From IMG/VR virus record IMGVR_UViG_3300010403_000021, positions 64,001 through 128,000 of that record: a stretch of DNA of 64,000 nucleotides. One strand, written 5' to 3'. This document shows positions 34,154 to 44,552 of the stretch, piece by piece. Position numbers and translations under genes: made by a program. The notes under the pieces are model-generated. The model worked only from the letters and a program-made list of their open reading frames with translations, made no database searches and was not told the origin of the DNA. Source of the DNA: a virus. Numbering within the stretch: position 1 is the first letter of the stretch; each line of letters begins with the position of its first letter.

Positions 34154-34572
34154 TACTTCCTATTACTTGTGGTATTACTTTCGCTCGTCCCTCAGATCCA
34201 GGCTATTTAACTGCCAGGGCAACTGATCATAATAGATCAGCAATTACTGTTACCCCAGAAAAAATGGAAAATAAAGAACGCATGGCCGATGGTACTTTGA
34301 GAAAGTTCGTGGTAGCAACCAAGAATAATATCAAGGTATCTTGGACAGATTTACCAAATAAGAATGTTGTATCTGTGGATAAATTCTGGGCGGCAGATGC
34401 GTTAAAGAATTTCTATTATTCACATGATGGTGATTTTTATGTCACTCTAAATTATGGTGATGGAACAAATAAGATTTTTCATGTTATGTTCAGTGAATTT
34501 GATGCAAAGCTTTCAAAAAGAGGAATTTATACAGATTTATATGATATCAGCATAGGATTGGAAGAAATATAA
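34150..34572 (+). CDS. Small tail tip protein (distal tail or connector)
   Basis: A 140-residue beta protein between the tape measure and the large minor tail protein. It opens with ILPITCGITFARPSDPGYLTA and includes RKFVVATKNNIKVSWTDLPN, similar to short tail-tip proteins of actinophages. It overlaps the tape measure by 4 nt and the next gene by 1 nt. Confidence 0.55.
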   Translation: MILPITCGITFARPSDPGYLTARATDHNRSAITVTPEKMENKERMADGTLRKFVVATKNNIKVSWTDLPNKNVVSVDKFWAADALKNFYYSHDGDFYVTLNYGDGTNKIFHVMFSEFDAKLSKRGIYTDLYDISIGLEEI

Positions 34573-37500
34573 TGCAGCAACTTGACAGCCAATTGATGAC
34601 GGCTCTGGATACAGACTATCAAATTGGTGGTAAGGCTATAGTTATTGCCGAATGGAATTTTAATAGAATTGTCAAGACAACTGTAACCAATACTATCGAT
34701 GATGTGGATTTTAAGCCTTGGCCTTATTCTAAAATTCATTTTCCAGTCAGCTCTATTACTGAAGGGTTTAGGCCGGACGCCGGAATGGTGTTTGGTTTTA
34801 CAGGCACGGCAATTCCTATTTCCAATGCTGAATTAGCGCCGGGTGGACAAAGATTCTATGTTGCAAGTAAAACTACTCCATATAAGTATTGGATATCACC
34901 AAGTAAATCCATATCAAATATTAATCAAGACACAGTATCAACAGGTGAACTTAACTTTGCCATCAGTAATGCTGATCTAATTGTTGAGTACGACACTCCA
35001 ATAAAGGTTAATAAAGTAAAAGTTGTCTTCACAGGTGATACAAGACCAGTTATATGGAGAGTATCTATCTTTGATCAGAATCTAAATGATTGGGTTCTTA
35101 TTTCAACATCTCCAACAGTTGATGCAATTACTGGTAGAGCTGAGCTATGGTGGAATGGTTCTGCATGGGTGCAAACACAACAACTAGATGACAGTTTGTA
35201 TAAGACCATCAAGAAAGTAAAAGTTGAGTTTGATAGCGTAAATGCACCGGCAGAGAGATTGCATGTAATTGAAATAGCAGGCATGAGAGAAATTGATATG
35301 TCTGCAAGACTTCAGAACTACAATATTAATAGCAGCATGGATAACGTTGACTACATCCATCCTGTTGGACAAATGAATTCAAATGACGGATCTTTGGTTA
35401 TAGATAACAGAGATTTGGCTATTGAAGTGGCAGATCCAACGGTTGATTTTTATGGTCTTACAGACGGCTGGTGTGAATACAGAACTTATGTCAAGTATGA
35501 TATGTCTAAATATCTAGTTGATGATGAATATGTTCGTACCGGAACGATGTTTTCAAATGGATGGGCTCAAGAAAATCCATACGAATACAGCATCGAACTA
35601 TTCGATATCGTGAAGATTTTACAAACCATAAAATGCCCGGCGGTGCTGGTAGAGAATAAGTCGATTGGTCGTATCATGTCTATGATCCTTGATCTAGTAG
35701 GAATAGATAGATATGAAATTGACTTTCAAGACTTTGATCAGACATCCAACATAAGGTATTTCTGGACTGATGGTAAAGAATCAGTATACGAGGTTCTCAA
35801 TAGAATATGTGAATCACATCAGTGTGCTATATTCTCAGATGAATTTGGTAAGCTTCAACTATTGACAAGAAATCAAATAGCAAATGATATCGATACAGAA
35901 GACTTCATTCTACGTGGTGAAGATGTCATCGTTGGTCCTACAACATTAATTTCAAACTTTTCACAATTGAGAAAAAGATACGATCTCGCAGTAAATGATA
36001 TTGAAATAAAATATAAGCGTAGACAAGCCAACGTAGATGATTTGGATATTACTGGAAAAGTTCTTACTTCAAAGGTATGGGATACCAGTGATTCTATTGT
36101 TATGAAAGCTAGTCCTTTAAGAATTAAGGTCGACAAGACTGCGATTCCTGGTGTTGAAGTAGATCATGATACTCCTTGTGATGTTTTTATGAATGACAAA
36201 GACATAGAGACATGGCCTTATAAGGGATCGTTTTCTCTGGATGGTGAAATATTCAATTATGATGGAAAGGGTTATGCTGTAATTGATTATGGTACTAACA
36301 CCTGGGCTGAATGGATCATCAAGAGCAATGACGAAAAGAAGGCTTACGACAAGCAGACCTATGACAGCTACCAGCCTGTAGGAGGCCCATCAGGCGGTGC
36401 TAGCGGCCAGCCTATTAATGCTCCGGTACCAGCAGGCCTCTATCAAAATAAACTGACTGGAAGACTACGTGTCACAGCTCGTGGAGTAGATGAAACCGTA
36501 CCCGCAACCCATACAAATAACTGGGTTGACGGATGGTTGCCTTTGCGCGCGTGGAGATATGAGGGTACTGGTGTCGGTTATATTGATTATGGTGGCAGTG
36601 GAATTACTCTAGCCAATGTAGCTGATTGGAGAAACAAGCCAAATTGGAAGCGTACACAGAGTAGATGGACAGTTGAAAATTCAAAAGCGATATGTGATCA
36701 CAGTGAACAGACAAATATAAGTGATAAGTTTGGTTTTCTCATTAGAGATCTTGGAGATGTAGAATTCAGAGAGTTCGGTACCAGAATTAAATTTAATACT
36801 GGTGGAACTGCTGGTATTGTTTTTTGTATTACAGATCAAGACGGATATACTCAAGATGATCCATCATTGGAAGATCCAACTGACGCTCATAGATACTATA
36901 TTCTTTCAGTTATTACATCTGAGGATGTAGACGCTGCTGGCCGAGTAAACAACGAAATTAATATCGATGTCAAAAACGGTGATGATTTTACACCACTTGA
37001 ACCAATGAATACCAAGATCGCCGACGGCGGTGGAAAGATGCAAATAGATAAAGGTAAATGGTACGACATTGAGATTGTTTATCATGACAATATGATGAAT
37101 GACCGTCGTGGTTCCGGTAAAATTGAAGTCTTCGTTGATGGTCAATACATTGATACATGGGAGACCGATGATGTCATTCGTCCAACAAACTACGCAGGCG
37201 TTCATTGCAGATATTCAACTATAGCCGAATTTGAATATTTCTATGCGACTACAACAAGTGGTCGTGCTGCTCCACGTTGGAGAAATGATGAAACATTTGG
37301 TATGAATATTATTAATCTTCCACCCGGAACTGATGTCAGCACAATAGTTAATTTTGGTTCTGATGGCGCTTGGCCAGGTAGAGTGGCAATGTCTGCTGCT
37401 TCACTTGCAACTACAAGCTCCTTGAGTTCTGTTAAGATATTTGGTAAAGGAAATGCTCAACTAGCAGAATTAGGCCCGGTGACACTTAAAGGTGACACAC

Positions 37501-38375
37501 GTAAAACATGGCTTATGGAAGATATAGCTAAAGGTAAGCTTGCTAGTATGGCTAAAATAAGATATACAAGCTCAGAAGACCTATCATTATGTTTTGAATA
37601 TACTAATATTGGAGCATTACCTTATTTTGGATACAGAAATATCTATCCGCAAGATTATTCTTATTACAATAAGACCAAGGGTGCATATTTCGCTACTAGA
37701 TTCCAGAATATAGTAGTAAATAAAGATTCAAATTATGATAACACTGGAAATATAATTATTGCCAACAGTGAAACAGATCAATCTATTTTCTTCGATGATT
37801 TTGGATCTATCATTAGAGAGATTAGAGACTTCGATGTTGAATTATCAGCGGCACCATCAAAGGGTACTAGTGTTTTCAGTAGTAATCCTGGCGTTGTTGT
37901 AACAAAGTTTTCTTATAATCCTCAAAGAGGAATCTTTACTCTTGCCAATGCATCACATGAGAATGAGATTGTCAACGGTACGGAACAAGTAGATAGTTCT
38001 AATACAATTGATCATACTTTGCTACTTTATGGTTATATCATCATTGAAAAGGAAGAGAAAACAAAAGAAGTCAAGAATGATGATTCTATTAGAAAGCATG
38101 GTTCAAGACCAGCAGACTTCGATGCATATTGGATCAATGGTGATGAAGAAGCGGATGCATTAGCTGCTTGGATTTCAACTCATTGGGCTGATCCTATGGC
38201 AACAATTGAAGTAAAAACATTTGGTGATATTTATGTTCAAATAGGTGATAAGTCAAAAATTATCTATTCAGATTCACAAATTAAACCAGAATGGCTTTAT
38301 ATTGTAACTGCTATGACTAGAGAATTTGACAGCAGCGGTCTTTCAACAAGTCTAACTCTTCGTAGAGTTAGATAA
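34572..38375 (+). CDS. Large minor tail / baseplate hub protein
   Basis: A 1,267-residue tail-tip protein. Residues about 60-240 look like a carbohydrate-binding jelly roll (VNKVKVVFTGDTRPVIWRVS, RLHVIEIAGM). Residues about 250-520 resemble hub/Tal-type domains (EYSIELFDIVKILQ, YEVLNRICESHQCAIFSDEF). A LamG or 3-keto-disaccharide-hydrolase-like sandwich follows at about 710-900 (GKIEVFVDGQYIDTWE), then the beta module shared with the protein at 16017 (about 916-1020). It probably recognises the host wall. TAATG overlap with the previous gene. Confidence 0.7.
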   Translation: MQQLDSQLMTALDTDYQIGGKAIVIAEWNFNRIVKTTVTNTIDDVDFKPWPYSKIHFPVSSITEGFRPDAGMVFGFTGTAIPISNAELAPGGQRFYVASKTTPYKYWISPSKSISNINQDTVSTGELNFAISNADLIVEYDTPIKVNKVKVVFTGDTRPVIWRVSIFDQNLNDWVLISTSPTVDAITGRAELWWNGSAWVQTQQLDDSLYKTIKKVKVEFDSVNAPAERLHVIEIAGMREIDMSARLQNYNINSSMDNVDYIHPVGQMNSNDGSLVIDNRDLAIEVADPTVDFYGLTDGWCEYRTYVKYDMSKYLVDDEYVRTGTMFSNGWAQENPYEYSIELFDIVKILQTIKCPAVLVENKSIGRIMSMILDLVGIDRYEIDFQDFDQTSNIRYFWTDGKESVYEVLNRICESHQCAIFSDEFGKLQLLTRNQIANDIDTEDFILRGEDVIVGPTTLISNFSQLRKRYDLAVNDIEIKYKRRQANVDDLDITGKVLTSKVWDTSDSIVMKASPLRIKVDKTAIPGVEVDHDTPCDVFMNDKDIETWPYKGSFSLDGEIFNYDGKGYAVIDYGTNTWAEWIIKSNDEKKAYDKQTYDSYQPVGGPSGGASGQPINAPVPAGLYQNKLTGRLRVTARGVDETVPATHTNNWVDGWLPLRAWRYEGTGVGYIDYGGSGITLANVADWRNKPNWKRTQSRWTVENSKAICDHSEQTNISDKFGFLIRDLGDVEFREFGTRIKFNTGGTAGIVFCITDQDGYTQDDPSLEDPTDAHRYYILSVITSEDVDAAGRVNNEINIDVKNGDDFTPLEPMNTKIADGGGKMQIDKGKWYDIEIVYHDNMMNDRRGSGKIEVFVDGQYIDTWETDDVIRPTNYAGVHCRYSTIAEFEYFYATTTSGRAAPRWRNDETFGMNIINLPPGTDVSTIVNFGSDGAWPGRVAMSAASLATTSSLSSVKIFGKGNAQLAELGPVTLKGDTRKTWLMEDIAKGKLASMAKIRYTSSEDLSLCFEYTNIGALPYFGYRNIYPQDYSYYNKTKGAYFATRFQNIVVNKDSNYDNTGNIIIANSETDQSIFFDDFGSIIREIRDFDVELSAAPSKGTSVFSSNPGVVVTKFSYNPQRGIFTLANASHENEIVNGTEQVDSSNTIDHTLLLYGYIIIEKEEKTKEVKNDDSIRKHGSRPADFDAYWINGDEEADALAAWISTHWADPMATIEVKTFGDIYVQIGDKSKIIYSDSQIKPEWLYIVTAMTREFDSSGLSTSLTLRRVR

Positions 38376-38376
38376 G

Positions 38377-38405
38377 TTGGCCGTGACAACTATATGTGAT
38401 AAAAT
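38377..38405 (+). promoter_or_regulatory. Promoter for fibre genes, leaderless
   Basis: TTGGCC (38377-38382), 17 nt, TAAAAT (38400-38405) preceded by TGA. The ATG at 38412 starts 6 nt later, i.e. at the expected first transcribed base. There is no ribosome site. Confidence 0.65.
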
Positions 38406-38411
38406 GTAGCA

Positions 38412-38780
38412 ATGGAGCAAATTAAATCAGATCAGATTGTACCTAATAAGGTTGCAGACAATACAATCAATTCTATTCCAAGAGATTTAGGTCAAGAAGT
38501 TGGAGACAGAAGAAAAAAGCCTTTGGGTTTAATTGTCGCAGATGGCCCCGGTGGATCAACATCTAATCCTGATGCAATTTCTCCAGTAAATGATTCAGTT
38601 GAAGTATTAAATCCGGCATCTAAGCTTCCGGCTACTCCGCAACTTATTGCTATTAAAAGTCAGACAGTCAATATAAAACCAGATGGAACAGCAGCGGTTG
38701 ATATTATTATTGAAGTAGAAGATGTAAGAAATGCCGTAGAATATGAAGTGAGGATAACTAAAGGTGCAGGGAACCTATAA
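38412..38780 (+). CDS. Fibre N-terminal protein ending in half an FN3 domain
   Basis: A 122-residue protein. The first 70 residues are polar and probably attach to the tail tip. From about residue 73 the sequence PATPQLIAIKSQTVNIKPDG then IIIEVEDVRNAVEYEVRITK matches the first strands (A-B-C) of a fibronectin type III domain and then stops. The missing strands appear at the start of the product of 39645-44552, which is in the same reading frame. The intervening gene occupies the gap. Leaderless start. Confidence 0.55.
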   Translation: MEQIKSDQIVPNKVADNTINSIPRDLGQEVGDRRKKPLGLIVADGPGGSTSNPDAISPVNDSVEVLNPASKLPATPQLIAIKSQTVNIKPDGTAAVDIIIEVEDVRNAVEYEVRITKGAGNL

Positions 38781-39645
38781 TTTATATCTAGACGGAGATC
38801 TAGTAGCGTGTTATAAAAATCTGATAACCAATCAAGGCAAGTCTAGAATAAGACAAATGTTGGCAGGTAATGTCAATAGTTTTGCGTCTTCTATCCTTGT
38901 GGGTATTGGTGAAGATGTAGCAAATGTTAATGATACAAAACTAACATTTGCAGTCGATGGCGCTAATATTTCAGGTACTATGGTTGACGATGTCAATAAT
39001 GGTATTTATTTTAAAACTTCACTTCCAGTAAGAGGACAATATGTAATTTATGAACTTGGCTGCTTTGCTGCAAATAGTGTAACTTCTCAACAAATTATGC
39101 AGAATGCACTGTTGATGTCCTTTGGAGATTCTCCAGGCTGGGCGTCTAGTGTAGGCTCACATACTTTAGATGATACATTTACCAGAATAGGTATTAATTC
39201 ATTGCATTATAATATCCTGGCCAGCGCAACAGCCAAAGGTGCCACTCCTATGTTGATCAATCTTGATCAACTAGATGCCTTGACTATCTTCTCTTTTGCA
39301 TTTTATGCTTCTAATATTAATTCAATTAAGCTAAGATTCAAGAATTCAGATACCGATTATTACGAACGTGTGATCAGTTCCATCTTGGATGAAGATTATA
39401 ATATATCTACTTTTACAAAAGGTAGTTTTACTGCAACCGGTTCCCCTACATGGTCAAACATAATTTCAATGGAAGTTGAAATAGAAGCCCAGGCATCAAA
39501 TGGCTTCATTGATTTAGATGGTCTGCGTTATGATTCAGCAGGACAGAGTAATCTTTTGCTTAGTAGAGCATTGGCGGCAGACCCAACAATTAAACCAGTA
39601 GGGTCAACTTTGGATATAGAATATATTCTTGAGGGTGTTGTCTGA
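38764..39645 (+). CDS. Fibre-associated protein lying within a split FN3 region
   Basis: A 293-residue beta protein with a GTG start, overlapping the upstream gene by 17 nt; GAGGAT lies about 10 nt before it. The N-terminal part (GTYNLYLDGDLVACYKNLIT) resembles small tail-fibre subunits. The second half (residues 110-275) is a jelly-roll-like carbohydrate-binding fold (SLHYNILASATAKG, FAFYASNINSIKLRFKNSD, NGFIDLDGLRYD). Its stop overlaps the next ATG. It appears inserted between two halves of one FN3 domain. Confidence 0.55.
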   Translation: MQGTYNLYLDGDLVACYKNLITNQGKSRIRQMLAGNVNSFASSILVGIGEDVANVNDTKLTFAVDGANISGTMVDDVNNGIYFKTSLPVRGQYVIYELGCFAANSVTSQQIMQNALLMSFGDSPGWASSVGSHTLDDTFTRIGINSLHYNILASATAKGATPMLINLDQLDALTIFSFAFYASNINSIKLRFKNSDTDYYERVISSILDEDYNISTFTKGSFTATGSPTWSNIISMEVEIEAQASNGFIDLDGLRYDSAGQSNLLLSRALAADPTIKPVGSTLDIEYILEGVV

Positions 39646-42600
39646 TGGAAATTATGCTTAAAGATCTAAGTCCTGGTGAAGAATATACCATTCAACTTAG
39701 AGCAAAGAATCAATCAGGATCATCACCTTGGTCAAGATCATATAAGATTCAAGCTACCAGTGATACATTCGCGCCAGGTCCAGTAACAGGTCTTACTTGG
39801 ATTTCTTCGGGAACTTCATTTGTTGGCACGTGGGTAAAGCCTGCCCTTGATTCAAATGGACTTCCACTAAAAGACTTTAAAGATTATAAGATTACATTAA
39901 CTGCTGGTATTAAATCAGTGGTTTATTATGTTACGCAAGAAAGATTCGATCTTTCATTTGAAGCTAATGTGGGAGCATTTACTGATCCAGAGCCTACTGT
40001 TACATTAAAAGTTGAAGTAAGAGATCAGGTTGGTAATATATCAACACCTGTTTCATTAAGTGCTTCAAATCCCGTTCCACCTAATATCAGTAACTTTACT
40101 GCAACAGCAAAACCAAACTCAATCTCATTGATGTGGGATTCTGTAGATGTCGATGACTTAAAGCAATATGAAGTTCATATGTCAACATCTGGATCTGGGT
40201 TTACACCAACTTCAGGCAATCTTGTATTCAGCGGTTTATCAACTGCTTTTCTATTTCCATCATCAAATCAGATACTTCATTATTTCAAGATCAGAGCTGT
40301 TGATATTTATGGTCAGGGTTCATTGGCATATGCTACAGATAGTGCAATTCCGGATCTTCCAACTGGCCTGGACACATCACCCCCAGATGATCCAACTGGT
40401 GTGGTAGTATCAACCACGGCCGGTGAAGCAGGAGAGTCACAGCTCACTGTCTCATGGACTGCTGTAACTAGTCCCAATCTACGCTACTATGTGGTACGAT
40501 GGAGTACGGACGAGGTCACATGGCAGTTTATTAACGTACCATCGGATAAGACCAGCACTATAATAACTGGTCTGAAATCATCAACTGACTACTATGTAGC
40601 AGTGGCTTCAGTATCTCAAGTAAACAGTATCTCTGACTACATAAACGCCACTCCTTATCCAATCACAGCAGCGGTTGATAATACTGCTCCGTCTCGACCA
40701 GCACCAGCAACAGTTTCCGTTGGCCCCTTGATGGCTTTGGTTGGTCACGATATGACTAAAAATTCCGGCGGTAATCTGGAAAGTGATGTTGCTTATCTAG
40801 AAGTACATGCATCAACAACAACGGGTTTTACAACAAGCACAGCAACTTTGAGAGGAACTATTCAAAGTGCTGGTGATGGTATTCCGGTTCAAGGTGCATT
40901 TACTTTTACAGATCTTTCAACAACACCAAGTAGTGTGTATTGGAGAGTTGTGGCCGTTGACACATCAGAGAATAAATCTGTTGGATCTTTTGAGGTCACA
41001 GGAACACCTGGTCTACTAAGCGGTGTCAATATCCTTGATGCCTCTATTTTGAATGCAAAGATTCAGGATCTTAGCGCAGCCAAGATTATTGCTGGCACTG
41101 CATTTATTAATGATTTGTACATCAGATCTGAGCTTACAATGGATGATACTGATGGAATCATTAAAACATCAGATTATAACGCCGGTACAAAAACAGGGTG
41201 GAAATTAGATAAACAAGGCATTACTTTATACGATGGTATCGTAGCAGCTAAAGCTTTGGATATTCAAGATTCAGCAAATATAGCACCACCACAGTTTGCC
41301 GATTTCGAATTCGATTCAGATTTTTATCATGATGGTGCAAATATTGCCAATCCAACCAATCTAACTGCTACTAGTGGTATGAATTTGGTTATTCAGAATG
41401 TCAGTTTTAAAACTGGTAATCAAGCATTAAGATTACATAATGCTGCTATTACACCAACTACAAAGCATACATTGGTGTTCTCAAGAGATGGATTAACTAA
41501 TGTTGACATGAATGTCAACGTAGACCCAGGTGATTATATATTTTCTATCTGGGCTAAATCCAATGGAGCCATTGACCAAGATATTGCCTTTGGTCTATAT
41601 ACTGATGCCAGTGGAACTGTAACAAGTTCTACTATCAATGTGACAAGCACTGCTTTCACTAGATACAGTGCTAAATTAACTGTGCCATCTGGTGTATCAA
41701 GAATCAAGCTTTTCATTAAAGTTGGTCCTATGGCTTCCGAAGTTGGTTATGATATTGTTATTGATTCACTTCAGTTTGAAAGAAAAATAGCTGCTTCAGA
41801 TTCTCCTTCTGCCTGGACATCACCATCACGAACAACAATTGATGGTGGTTCTATTGTTACCGGTTCAATTAGAAGTTCAGCTCCTTCTACTACTGTTCCA
41901 ACAGAACCAGCTTGGTCTCTTAATACGACCGGTGGAATGCAGGTTGGTGATGCTTTGGTAAGAGGTACATTAGTAGTCGGTAACCCATTATCCTATATCA
42001 ATCTAGTACCTGATGAATATTCATCAATTGAAATGCCAGAAGCATTCTATAATGATGGTACTGGTCTGGCTAACCCTAATAATATCTTTATTGATGATAG
42101 CTGTGTTGTACAGGTTCAAAATTCTGGTGCTATGTTTGGTAGTCAAGCACTAAGAATTCAGAACTCGACTCATGTTGCCGCAGATCCAATAGGTTTGTTT
42201 ATGGGTAATATAGTCGGAGTGGGTAACGTTGCATTAAAGCCATTGACAACATATATACTTTCTGCATATGTAAAATCTGGTAACGTAGCAATGAATCAAG
42301 AGGCTGGTGTCGGAGTATTAGCAAATGATGGAAACTGGTATATTGGTTTGGCCGGGGACAGACAAAATATTACATCAACTTCTTACACTCGCGTATTTAG
42401 ATCATTTACCACAACATCAGGTATAACTGCCGCTCAATTTGCATTCTATTTGGCACCAACAGGATCTGATGTTGGTTTTGATATGATTGTTGACGGACTA
42501 ATGATTGAAGAAGCTGCCGTTGGTCAAACTACACCAAGTACTTTTTCACTTAATGGAGATTCAACATCATATGTAAAATCAGCCGGATATCAAGAAGGAC

Positions 42601-44552
42601 TATCAGGATGGATCATCAATTCTGATGGCTCAGTAGAATTCAACAATGGTTTGTTCAGAGGTTCACTTGATATCTCACAAACTGTTGGTGGTTATACATA
42701 TAACATGAATCTACAAAATAAGATATCCAGATTCCAATATAGAGAAGATGGAAGCATTGCGTTAGTATCAGATACTAATATTTATGGTACAAATCCAACG
42801 ATGAGATATTCTGGTTATGCACAGCAGTATGTAAAAGGTGCTGATGGTAACTTGGTGCTTGACAGAAACAGTCAAGTGCAGGCAGCTACAAGATTAACAC
42901 CAGCCGGACAATATCAGATTATCTTTGATCCTACTAATACTGAAGATATTTATAATGTCGACGGTAATTCACTATACGCTGTTGATGGTAATAGAAAGAA
43001 CATTAACTATTCATTTGCTAATAGTTTCTGGGGAACAAGACGTGCAGGTACATCTCAAAGTAGACGTGCAAATATTGAGCATACAACTCGTTCATTTATG
43101 GAGAATACATCACCTGGTGCTATTCTTCCTAAATTAAGAAGCTATTCAACATTGATGCAAGAGTCATCTGCTGAGACTGGTCTTTGGTATGATATTAAGA
43201 ACTATACTTCAGCAGCAGCCGGTGGAACAAATAATTTTATATCAGGAAATAAGATAAAAGATTATTTCGATTCATTTGATAATGGTGGAGGTCTTTCATA
43301 CTATAGTTCAAATTCAATTCAGAATAGATTTACATTTACTTCTATTCAGACAAATACTTGGGCTGCCGGTAGAAGAGATCTCAACTCATTGAAGCTTACT
43401 ATTGCATCAGGTACTGGTAATCCAACTATTTACTTTGCTACTACTGGGGTGTATGATACGACAGTTGTACCAGGACAATATAACATTGTAGCTGGTTGGT
43501 TTGCGACGTCACAGGCTAATCTACAGGTAAGAGGTCTGATCAAGACTTCAGATGGTGTAGTATATGCTGGTGACTGGCAGTACATCAATAAGACTGCTTC
43601 ATTAATTAGTGGTCAGCTTGTCGACTATCCATATGCTTATGGATACAGCACATCTATTAGTTTGCCTGCTCTTGCGCCAACCGGTGCACAAATTGGTTTT
43701 GAATTCCAAACCGGTACAAATGGTCAAACGGTTAATATAACTGCTGTAACATATGCAGATGCTATGTCAGATGTAGATAGATTAAGATTCTCAGAAGTTG
43801 GAAGAACTGAAACATATTCTGGTGTTGCAACAATGCAAACCAACTTTGAACCATATCCTAATTTCTATGAATATGTTTCAGCCTCTTCTGGTCCAATTGC
43901 AGATCCTAGCGGCTGGGATAGTTTTGTAGCGCACCAAAGAGTAAAGGCAGAACTCATTGTTGAGTTCCTTGATGCATCAGGATATGGAATTCATAATGTT
44001 GCTCTTACAAGAGCAGGATGGCAAGAGGGAACAATTCAAGATCCACATATGCCTAATGGTTTTGCAAGGGTTTGTCCAGGTACACCGGGCAGTCTAGCCA
44101 GCAACGTCGAAGTTGGTTTCATTAATATGGACTATGCTACGATGAAACCATCGACCAGCCCTAATTTAAACAAGGCTGTTCTTTATGATGAAAATGGTAC
44201 AATTTGGACATCTACTTCAGCAATAACTGGTGTAGAAACTGCTTGGCCTGTTGAGGTTTATACGGCGACTAGGGCCGGTGTATATTTAATGAGTGCAGCG
44301 GCCAATGTAGATAAAATCCTTGACGAGGAAGTATATATTGAACTTCGTAAGCTTCCAGTTGGAACTAATCCACCATCACCCGGAACAACTATAGCAAGAC
44401 ATCAGTTCCCATTAGCCGATACGTATGGTATTCTTACAATACCAGTTTCGGCATCAGTAGGAGAAAGATTCTACTTTGTTTTGGGATCTCATACGCTGGC
44501 AGCAAACAGAGATATCTCAGATATGCGTATTACATTTGCACAAATATTATAA
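39645..44552 (+). CDS. Large tail fibre with FN3 repeats and glycan-binding modules
   Basis: A 1,635-residue fibre. Residues 1-40 (KDLSPGEEYTIQLRAKNQSG and SPWSRSYKIQATSD) are the second half of an FN3 domain. Four further FN3 units follow at about 45-145, 146-240, 247-340 and 348-455. A phage fibre linker (SGVNILDASILNAKIQDLSA) precedes two similar jelly-roll modules at about 555-720 and 800-970 (NQALRLHNAA / SQALRIQNST; GYDIVIDSLQFE / GFDMIVDGLMIEE). The C-terminal 600 residues are beta-rich and likely contact the host. No terminator before the next genes. Confidence 0.75.
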   Translation: MEIMLKDLSPGEEYTIQLRAKNQSGSSPWSRSYKIQATSDTFAPGPVTGLTWISSGTSFVGTWVKPALDSNGLPLKDFKDYKITLTAGIKSVVYYVTQERFDLSFEANVGAFTDPEPTVTLKVEVRDQVGNISTPVSLSASNPVPPNISNFTATAKPNSISLMWDSVDVDDLKQYEVHMSTSGSGFTPTSGNLVFSGLSTAFLFPSSNQILHYFKIRAVDIYGQGSLAYATDSAIPDLPTGLDTSPPDDPTGVVVSTTAGEAGESQLTVSWTAVTSPNLRYYVVRWSTDEVTWQFINVPSDKTSTIITGLKSSTDYYVAVASVSQVNSISDYINATPYPITAAVDNTAPSRPAPATVSVGPLMALVGHDMTKNSGGNLESDVAYLEVHASTTTGFTTSTATLRGTIQSAGDGIPVQGAFTFTDLSTTPSSVYWRVVAVDTSENKSVGSFEVTGTPGLLSGVNILDASILNAKIQDLSAAKIIAGTAFINDLYIRSELTMDDTDGIIKTSDYNAGTKTGWKLDKQGITLYDGIVAAKALDIQDSANIAPPQFADFEFDSDFYHDGANIANPTNLTATSGMNLVIQNVSFKTGNQALRLHNAAITPTTKHTLVFSRDGLTNVDMNVNVDPGDYIFSIWAKSNGAIDQDIAFGLYTDASGTVTSSTINVTSTAFTRYSAKLTVPSGVSRIKLFIKVGPMASEVGYDIVIDSLQFERKIAASDSPSAWTSPSRTTIDGGSIVTGSIRSSAPSTTVPTEPAWSLNTTGGMQVGDALVRGTLVVGNPLSYINLVPDEYSSIEMPEAFYNDGTGLANPNNIFIDDSCVVQVQNSGAMFGSQALRIQNSTHVAADPIGLFMGNIVGVGNVALKPLTTYILSAYVKSGNVAMNQEAGVGVLANDGNWYIGLAGDRQNITSTSYTRVFRSFTTTSGITAAQFAFYLAPTGSDVGFDMIVDGLMIEEAAVGQTTPSTFSLNGDSTSYVKSAGYQEGLSGWIINSDGSVEFNNGLFRGSLDISQTVGGYTYNMNLQNKISRFQYREDGSIALVSDTNIYGTNPTMRYSGYAQQYVKGADGNLVLDRNSQVQAATRLTPAGQYQIIFDPTNTEDIYNVDGNSLYAVDGNRKNINYSFANSFWGTRRAGTSQSRRANIEHTTRSFMENTSPGAILPKLRSYSTLMQESSAETGLWYDIKNYTSAAAGGTNNFISGNKIKDYFDSFDNGGGLSYYSSNSIQNRFTFTSIQTNTWAAGRRDLNSLKLTIASGTGNPTIYFATTGVYDTTVVPGQYNIVAGWFATSQANLQVRGLIKTSDGVVYAGDWQYINKTASLISGQLVDYPYAYGYSTSISLPALAPTGAQIGFEFQTGTNGQTVNITAVTYADAMSDVDRLRFSEVGRTETYSGVATMQTNFEPYPNFYEYVSASSGPIADPSGWDSFVAHQRVKAELIVEFLDASGYGIHNVALTRAGWQEGTIQDPHMPNGFARVCPGTPGSLASNVEVGFINMDYATMKPSTSPNLNKAVLYDENGTIWTSTSAITGVETAWPVEVYTATRAGVYLMSAAANVDKILDEEVYIELRKLPVGTNPPSPGTTIARHQFPLADTYGILTIPVSASVGERFYFVLGSHTLAANRDISDMRITFAQIL

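Follow-up and report, generated by a model that had tools for sequence, protein, structure and literature searches.

Evidence for an FN3 domain divided between two tail genes in phages of Streptomyces and Rhodococcus

The tail locus and its three genes

The window, by which we mean the whole 64,000-nt stretch of viral DNA analysed here, belongs to a virus record of 139,461 bp, and a near-identical contig is present in IMG/VR. On the plus strand, a 2216-aa open reading frame in the tape-measure position is followed by a small gene, a minor tail gene (34572-38375), and then three overlapping genes, which we denoted A, B, and C. The minor tail gene encodes a large protein related to the minor tail proteins of phrog_10359 (E 8.5e-158), which is the probable baseplate hub. 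Annotated relatives have the same layout upstream of the three genes, with the probable hub gene always immediately upstream of gene A. Accessory domains vary between members among the relatives of the hub (alignment A8), some of which show matches to Putative Ig (He_PIG), CBM_5_12, PA14, and F5/8 type C. No tRNA was found by ARAGORN in positions 1-64000 of the window. About 40 tRNAs and a tmRNA have been reported for the related Streptomyces phages of clusters BE1/BE2, and tRNA genes could sit elsewhere in the 139,461-bp record, outside the window.

Gene A (38412-38780) encodes a protein of 122 aa with the C-terminal end ...VEYEVRITKGAGNL, gene B (38764-39645) has a GTG start and encodes 293 aa, and gene C (39645-44552) encodes 1635 aa beginning with MEIMLKDLSPGEEYTIQLRAKNQSGSSPWSRSYKIQATSDT. 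The A/B overlap is 17 nt and the B/C overlap is 1 nt, while A and C share one reading frame and are separated by an interval of 882 nt (38763-39644). These gene coordinates, frames, and lengths, together with the interval, agree with an earlier sequence-only reading of the locus, which had proposed that one FN3 domain is split between A and C.

Residues 1-73 of A (38412-38630, plus strand) carry a conserved Pro23 and N-terminal motif and a flexible linker, and are probably an anchor to the hub. They are followed by a probable half-FN3 with strands A, B, and C (residues 74-117; 38631-38762, plus strand) and by the end of the gene (GAGNL and the stop codon; 38763-38780, plus strand), of which positions 38764-38780 also encode the start of B. 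In one relative (L057:3333-3998), the open frame of gene A has 222 codons and is about 100 longer at the N-terminal side than in the others, and its true start is uncertain.

Gene B matches the tail proteins of phrog_9983 (E 1.1e-51). Its AlphaFold (AF2) model had a pLDDT of 91.4 and a pTM of 0.87 with paired ends, and according to this model B is a complete two-domain tail protein. The second domain (about residues 115-277) is a CBM-like jelly roll with Foldseek matches to CBM11, CBM30, and CBM16, and full-length structural relatives of B were found in other tailed phages. The best PDB matches of B by Foldseek were turret and tail proteins of the archaeal Haloferax tailed virus 1, with partial coverage. 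It should be noted that the start of B (38764-38820), about 20 residues predicted to form a beta hairpin, is present in the window and in Loccivirinae and is missing in Boydwoodruffvirinae and Rhodococcus phages, whose B begins with MITTxGK.

Gene C matches the minor tail proteins of phrog_11445 (E 8e-173), with its residue 1 at profile position 1, and its product is the probable central fibre. A half-FN3 with strands E, F, and G occupies residues 1-42 (39645-39770, plus strand). The rest of the gene (39771-44552, plus strand) encodes FN3 domains arranged in a string, along with CBM_4_9 domains and a Phage_Tail_Tip match, and the Pfam fn3, CBM_4_9, and Phage_Tail_Tip matches were all above the cut-offs. 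A partial match to C (39645-44552) was found by tblastn in seven Rhizobium phage records. No relatives were found in bacterial genomes scanned with the C N-terminus.

Evidence for half-domains at the ends of A and C

The half-domain of C was recognized directly. With the first 43 residues alone as the query, residues 3-33 matched positions 51-81 of the 84 positions of Pfam fn3 (E 3e-6). C starts at the fifth FN3 strand, and in relatives a strand is always followed by the pattern LxPG...YxIQxRA...SxWS, within which P10, G11, Q17, R19, S27, W29, and S30 are invariant. Strands E-F-G, the L-x-PG turn, and the conserved pattern of an FN3 C-terminal half are therefore all found at the beginning of C.

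For A, the evidence of a half-domain is indirect. Searched alone, the A half gave no FN3 match in Pfam or PDB profile searches, and on phrog_31 it aligned at positions 870-915 with an E-value of 0.2. Gene A stops just after the third FN3 strand, a YEVRITK-like strand always precedes its end in relatives, and P76, Q84, G92, and R114 are conserved. The AF2 model of A alone, based on an alignment of 32 relatives, had a mean pLDDT of 65. It contained a confident hairpin (78-88/94-102) at the expected strands A and B, a fairly confident but unpaired stretch at the expected strand C, and a low-confidence linker (pLDDT below 50 at residues 29-65). Strand C would be expected to appear unpaired if its pairing strands belong to another chain. 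Foldseek with this model returned chance matches only, which is likewise expected of half a domain. As modelled, A alone is incomplete.

When the A and C halves of the window were joined, they matched one FN3 of phrog_31 ('central tail fiber J') in a single stretch at positions 870-963 (E 6.4e-4). Joined homologous pairs from two other loci also matched phrog_31, one at positions 867-962 (L019, E 8e-7) and the other with an E-value of 0.0044 (L021). The match was lost when the A half was reversed, and it was broken in two when the halves were swapped. An intact single-chain FN3 in locus L088 maps to the same J region (phrog_31 866-966) and aligns with the joined profile over the A and C halves alike, its segment at strand C' being longer. 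Altogether, three of the eight joined pairs reached phrog_31 and the other five did not, so this support is limited to the relatives closest to the window. When the halves were compared as profiles with the FN3 domains of C itself, the similarity was only weak, with the A half in the right register.

At the A/C join, 8-10 profile positions are absent where the edge strand C' would fall. The composite thus does not have the seven strands of an FN3, C' included, and is not a complete ordinary FN3. The expectation that removing the 882 nt would give one continuous FN3 was inexact, since the resulting composite has no C'. In the standard FN3 strand order, the sheets are A-B-E and C'-C-F-G, and strands C and E are parallel. 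By argument from this topology, the short join left after deleting B would probably bar a normal covalent FN3, because strands C and E have to run in parallel. The absent C' and the parallel C and E favour two chains over one continuous FN3. The division of one FN3 between genes A and C is nevertheless supported, with Pfam identifying the C half, the joined halves matching phrog_31, and the evidence for the A half being indirect.

Conservation and constraint among relatives

Gene B matched 132 phage records at no less than 80% coverage (127 of Streptomyces and 5 of Rhodococcus, including some GenBank/RefSeq duplicates), and viral contigs of IMG/VR contributed 64 further loci. Among annotated relatives, the order hub-A-B-C was found in both subfamilies of Stanwilliamsviridae, in Trinavirus, and in Rhodococcus phage Dorin. 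Models of the parts, scanned over all loci, identified 82 loci with 42 distinct A/C pairs, all split at one place, and A runs 0-5 residues past the last FN3 column in these 82 loci. Relatives from later scans showed the same split, which was found in all relatives examined (about 45 distinct A/C pairs from Streptomyces phages, Rhodococcus phages, and IMG/VR contigs). Recurring in every relative examined, the feature is not a product of chance. The A half and the C half were never seen apart in the loci examined. The sequence-only reading had named one finding as evidence against a split domain, namely complete and unrelated domains at the junction in all relatives. Instead, the relatives carry the same two half-domains.

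No fused form was detected. The joined consensus, searched by tblastn against 50,697 phage records, matched 154, none of which covered 80% of it in one place, and the fused form was also absent from all fetched loci. Furthermore, the phase from A to C varies among the relatives, being 1 in 33, 0 in 5, and 2 in 4 of the 42 distinct pairs. The shared frame of A and C in the window, which had been taken as a sign of one fibre gene, is therefore a coincidence. Most distinct loci have 4-nt overlaps (A/B in 36 of 42, B/C in 34 of 42), and the 17-nt A/B overlap was found in the window and two other loci (L019 and L022).

At one locus (L021:2515-3117), an HNH-endonuclease-like open reading frame lies exactly between A and B. 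In another (L090), whose C N-terminus is 73% identical to that of L021, A and B adjoin directly, suggesting that the additional frame is a homing-endonuclease insertion at the A/B boundary.

The ratio pN/pS was computed over 151 pairs of relatives. The A half (0.120) and the C half (0.121) had lower values than the next FN3 domains of C (0.187), B (0.218), and the remainder of A (0.272). The two half-domains are the most constrained parts of the three genes, a pattern that remnants would not be expected to show. The divergence of the A half correlated with that of the C half (r 0.90), and the partial correlation given B was a modest 0.37, with relatedness as a confounding factor.

A two-chain joint and its counterparts in other tails

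We consider it likely that A and C meet as separate chains in a single joint, where they rebuild one FN3 as a non-covalent fastening of hub to fibre. The coupled genes would yield A, B, and C together. The C-terminus of A would give FN3 strands A, B, and C and the N-terminus of C strands E, F, and G, and the two proteins would come together in the particle as a single FN3-like sandwich that lacks the edge strand C'. We infer both this physical pairing and the stoichiometry of the joint. The composite domain would sit at the head of the FN3 string of C. Through its front end and flexible linker, A probably docks on the hub, whose gene lies immediately upstream, and if the N-terminal region of A does bind the hub, the composite FN3 would serve as the hub-to-fibre fastening. 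B is a tail protein in its own right, bearing a domain of carbohydrate-binding type; it is translated in a coupled manner between A and C and possibly mounted at the same A-C joint. The ancestor of the split arrangement was probably a J-type fibre gene with this FN3 in covalent form. More speculatively, the obligate two-chain FN3 may be a releasable fastening, in which receptor binding separates the halves or slides the linker of A and thereby signals tail opening, and which the Streptomyces and Rhodococcus phage lineages would have kept throughout their divergence; we regard this extension as doubtful.

The main rival explanation is that the halves share ancestry but never meet, A being completed by the hub, B, or another A, and C by another fibre chain. 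Such completion has a precedent in lambda, where gpI adds strands to gpJ, including to one FN3 domain (PMC10721106). However, the two halves are complementary, ordered within one J-type FN3, and equally constrained, and they keep company at every locus examined. Furthermore, the self-sufficient B model with its paired ends makes B an unlikely partner for finishing either half, and on the same grounds B was ruled out as the donor of the missing strand. We therefore give completion by other partners a minor share of the probability.

A smaller chance still attaches to the explanation that the A terminus is an unrelated beta hairpin and strand rather than FN3, with C simply starting with a shortened FN3. 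The failure of the A half alone to match FN3 in Pfam or PDB searches would fit this, but the ordered J-type match that disappears on reversal would not. In addition, the register against another FN3 of C is right, albeit in a weak comparison, and the hairpin geometry fits strands A and B.

Two explanations that restore a single chain or gene appear very improbable. Splicing, ribosome hopping, or frameshifting around B could rejoin A and C in one chain, as the agreeing frames in the window and an interval divisible by 3 might suggest. However, B is conserved, constrained, and well folded, and it fills the whole interval, with overlaps at both ends (of 4 nt in most relatives) that leave no room for an intron. 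No Rfam match was found within 38300-39900, the A-to-C phase varies, and the rejoined product would have no strand C', which a covalent FN3 topology needs.

Equally improbable is that B was recently inserted into an intact fibre gene of this lineage, leaving two broken pieces, as the agreeing frames and seeming continuity of A and C in the window could imply, because the split is group-wide, the starts and stops are orderly and coupled, and purifying selection within the three genes is strongest on the half-domains. The sequence-only reading had offered either an inserted cassette or two chains rebuilding the fold. A recent cassette is contradicted by relatives that all have B at the same place, in many cases with a different phase, and by the lack of a fused form, while an insertion may have taken place long ago, when the group arose. 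Rebuilding by two putatively paired chains is the better reading.

Phage tails are built of reused FN3 domains, normally each in one chain. If A and C do pair, half-domains kept on separate genes across a lineage would mean that a fold boundary need not equal a gene boundary. In a large group of actinobacterial phages, the pair would also represent a concrete joint between hub and fibre, and as a natural two-piece FN3 it could serve in the study or construction of protein pairs. Half-domains at gene ends should accordingly not be written off as annotation errors. Among open-licence papers, to which our literature search was restricted, no split FN3 in phage tails was found. Such a search is weak evidence of novelty, but the division of a tail-fibre domain between genes is apparently undescribed.

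The families of A, B, and C already exist in PHROG as phrog_11696, phrog_9983, and phrog_11445, of which phrog_11696 ends at the split and phrog_11445 begins there. However, phrog_11696 is listed as of unknown function, and PHROG gives no link among the three families. As an engineered counterpart, the tenth FN3 of human fibronectin, when cut in a loop, can reassemble from two fragments. This comparison serves as a lead only, since the engineered fragments keep all strands, whereas the division described here is natural and conserved and has lost C'.

Among natural tails, one of the closest counterparts is the family of lambda gpJ (phrog_31), one FN3 of which is matched by the joined halves. 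Like gpJ, C has a string of FN3 domains and a tail-tip fibre region. However, lambda gpJ holds its hub domains and FN3 domains in one chain (PMC10721106), while here the probable hub is a separate gene (34572-38375), C begins inside an FN3, and two genes separated by a third each encode a part of that FN3. In phage T5, the FN3 string consists of two domains from the hub protein pb3 and three from pb4, which contact each other through loops, and the linker preceding the first FN3 is pulled as the tube opens (PMC10038345). The phage of the window resembles T5 in that hub and fibre are different proteins sharing an FN3 string, but the chain boundary between pb3 and pb4 lies between whole FN3 domains, whereas here it lies inside one domain.
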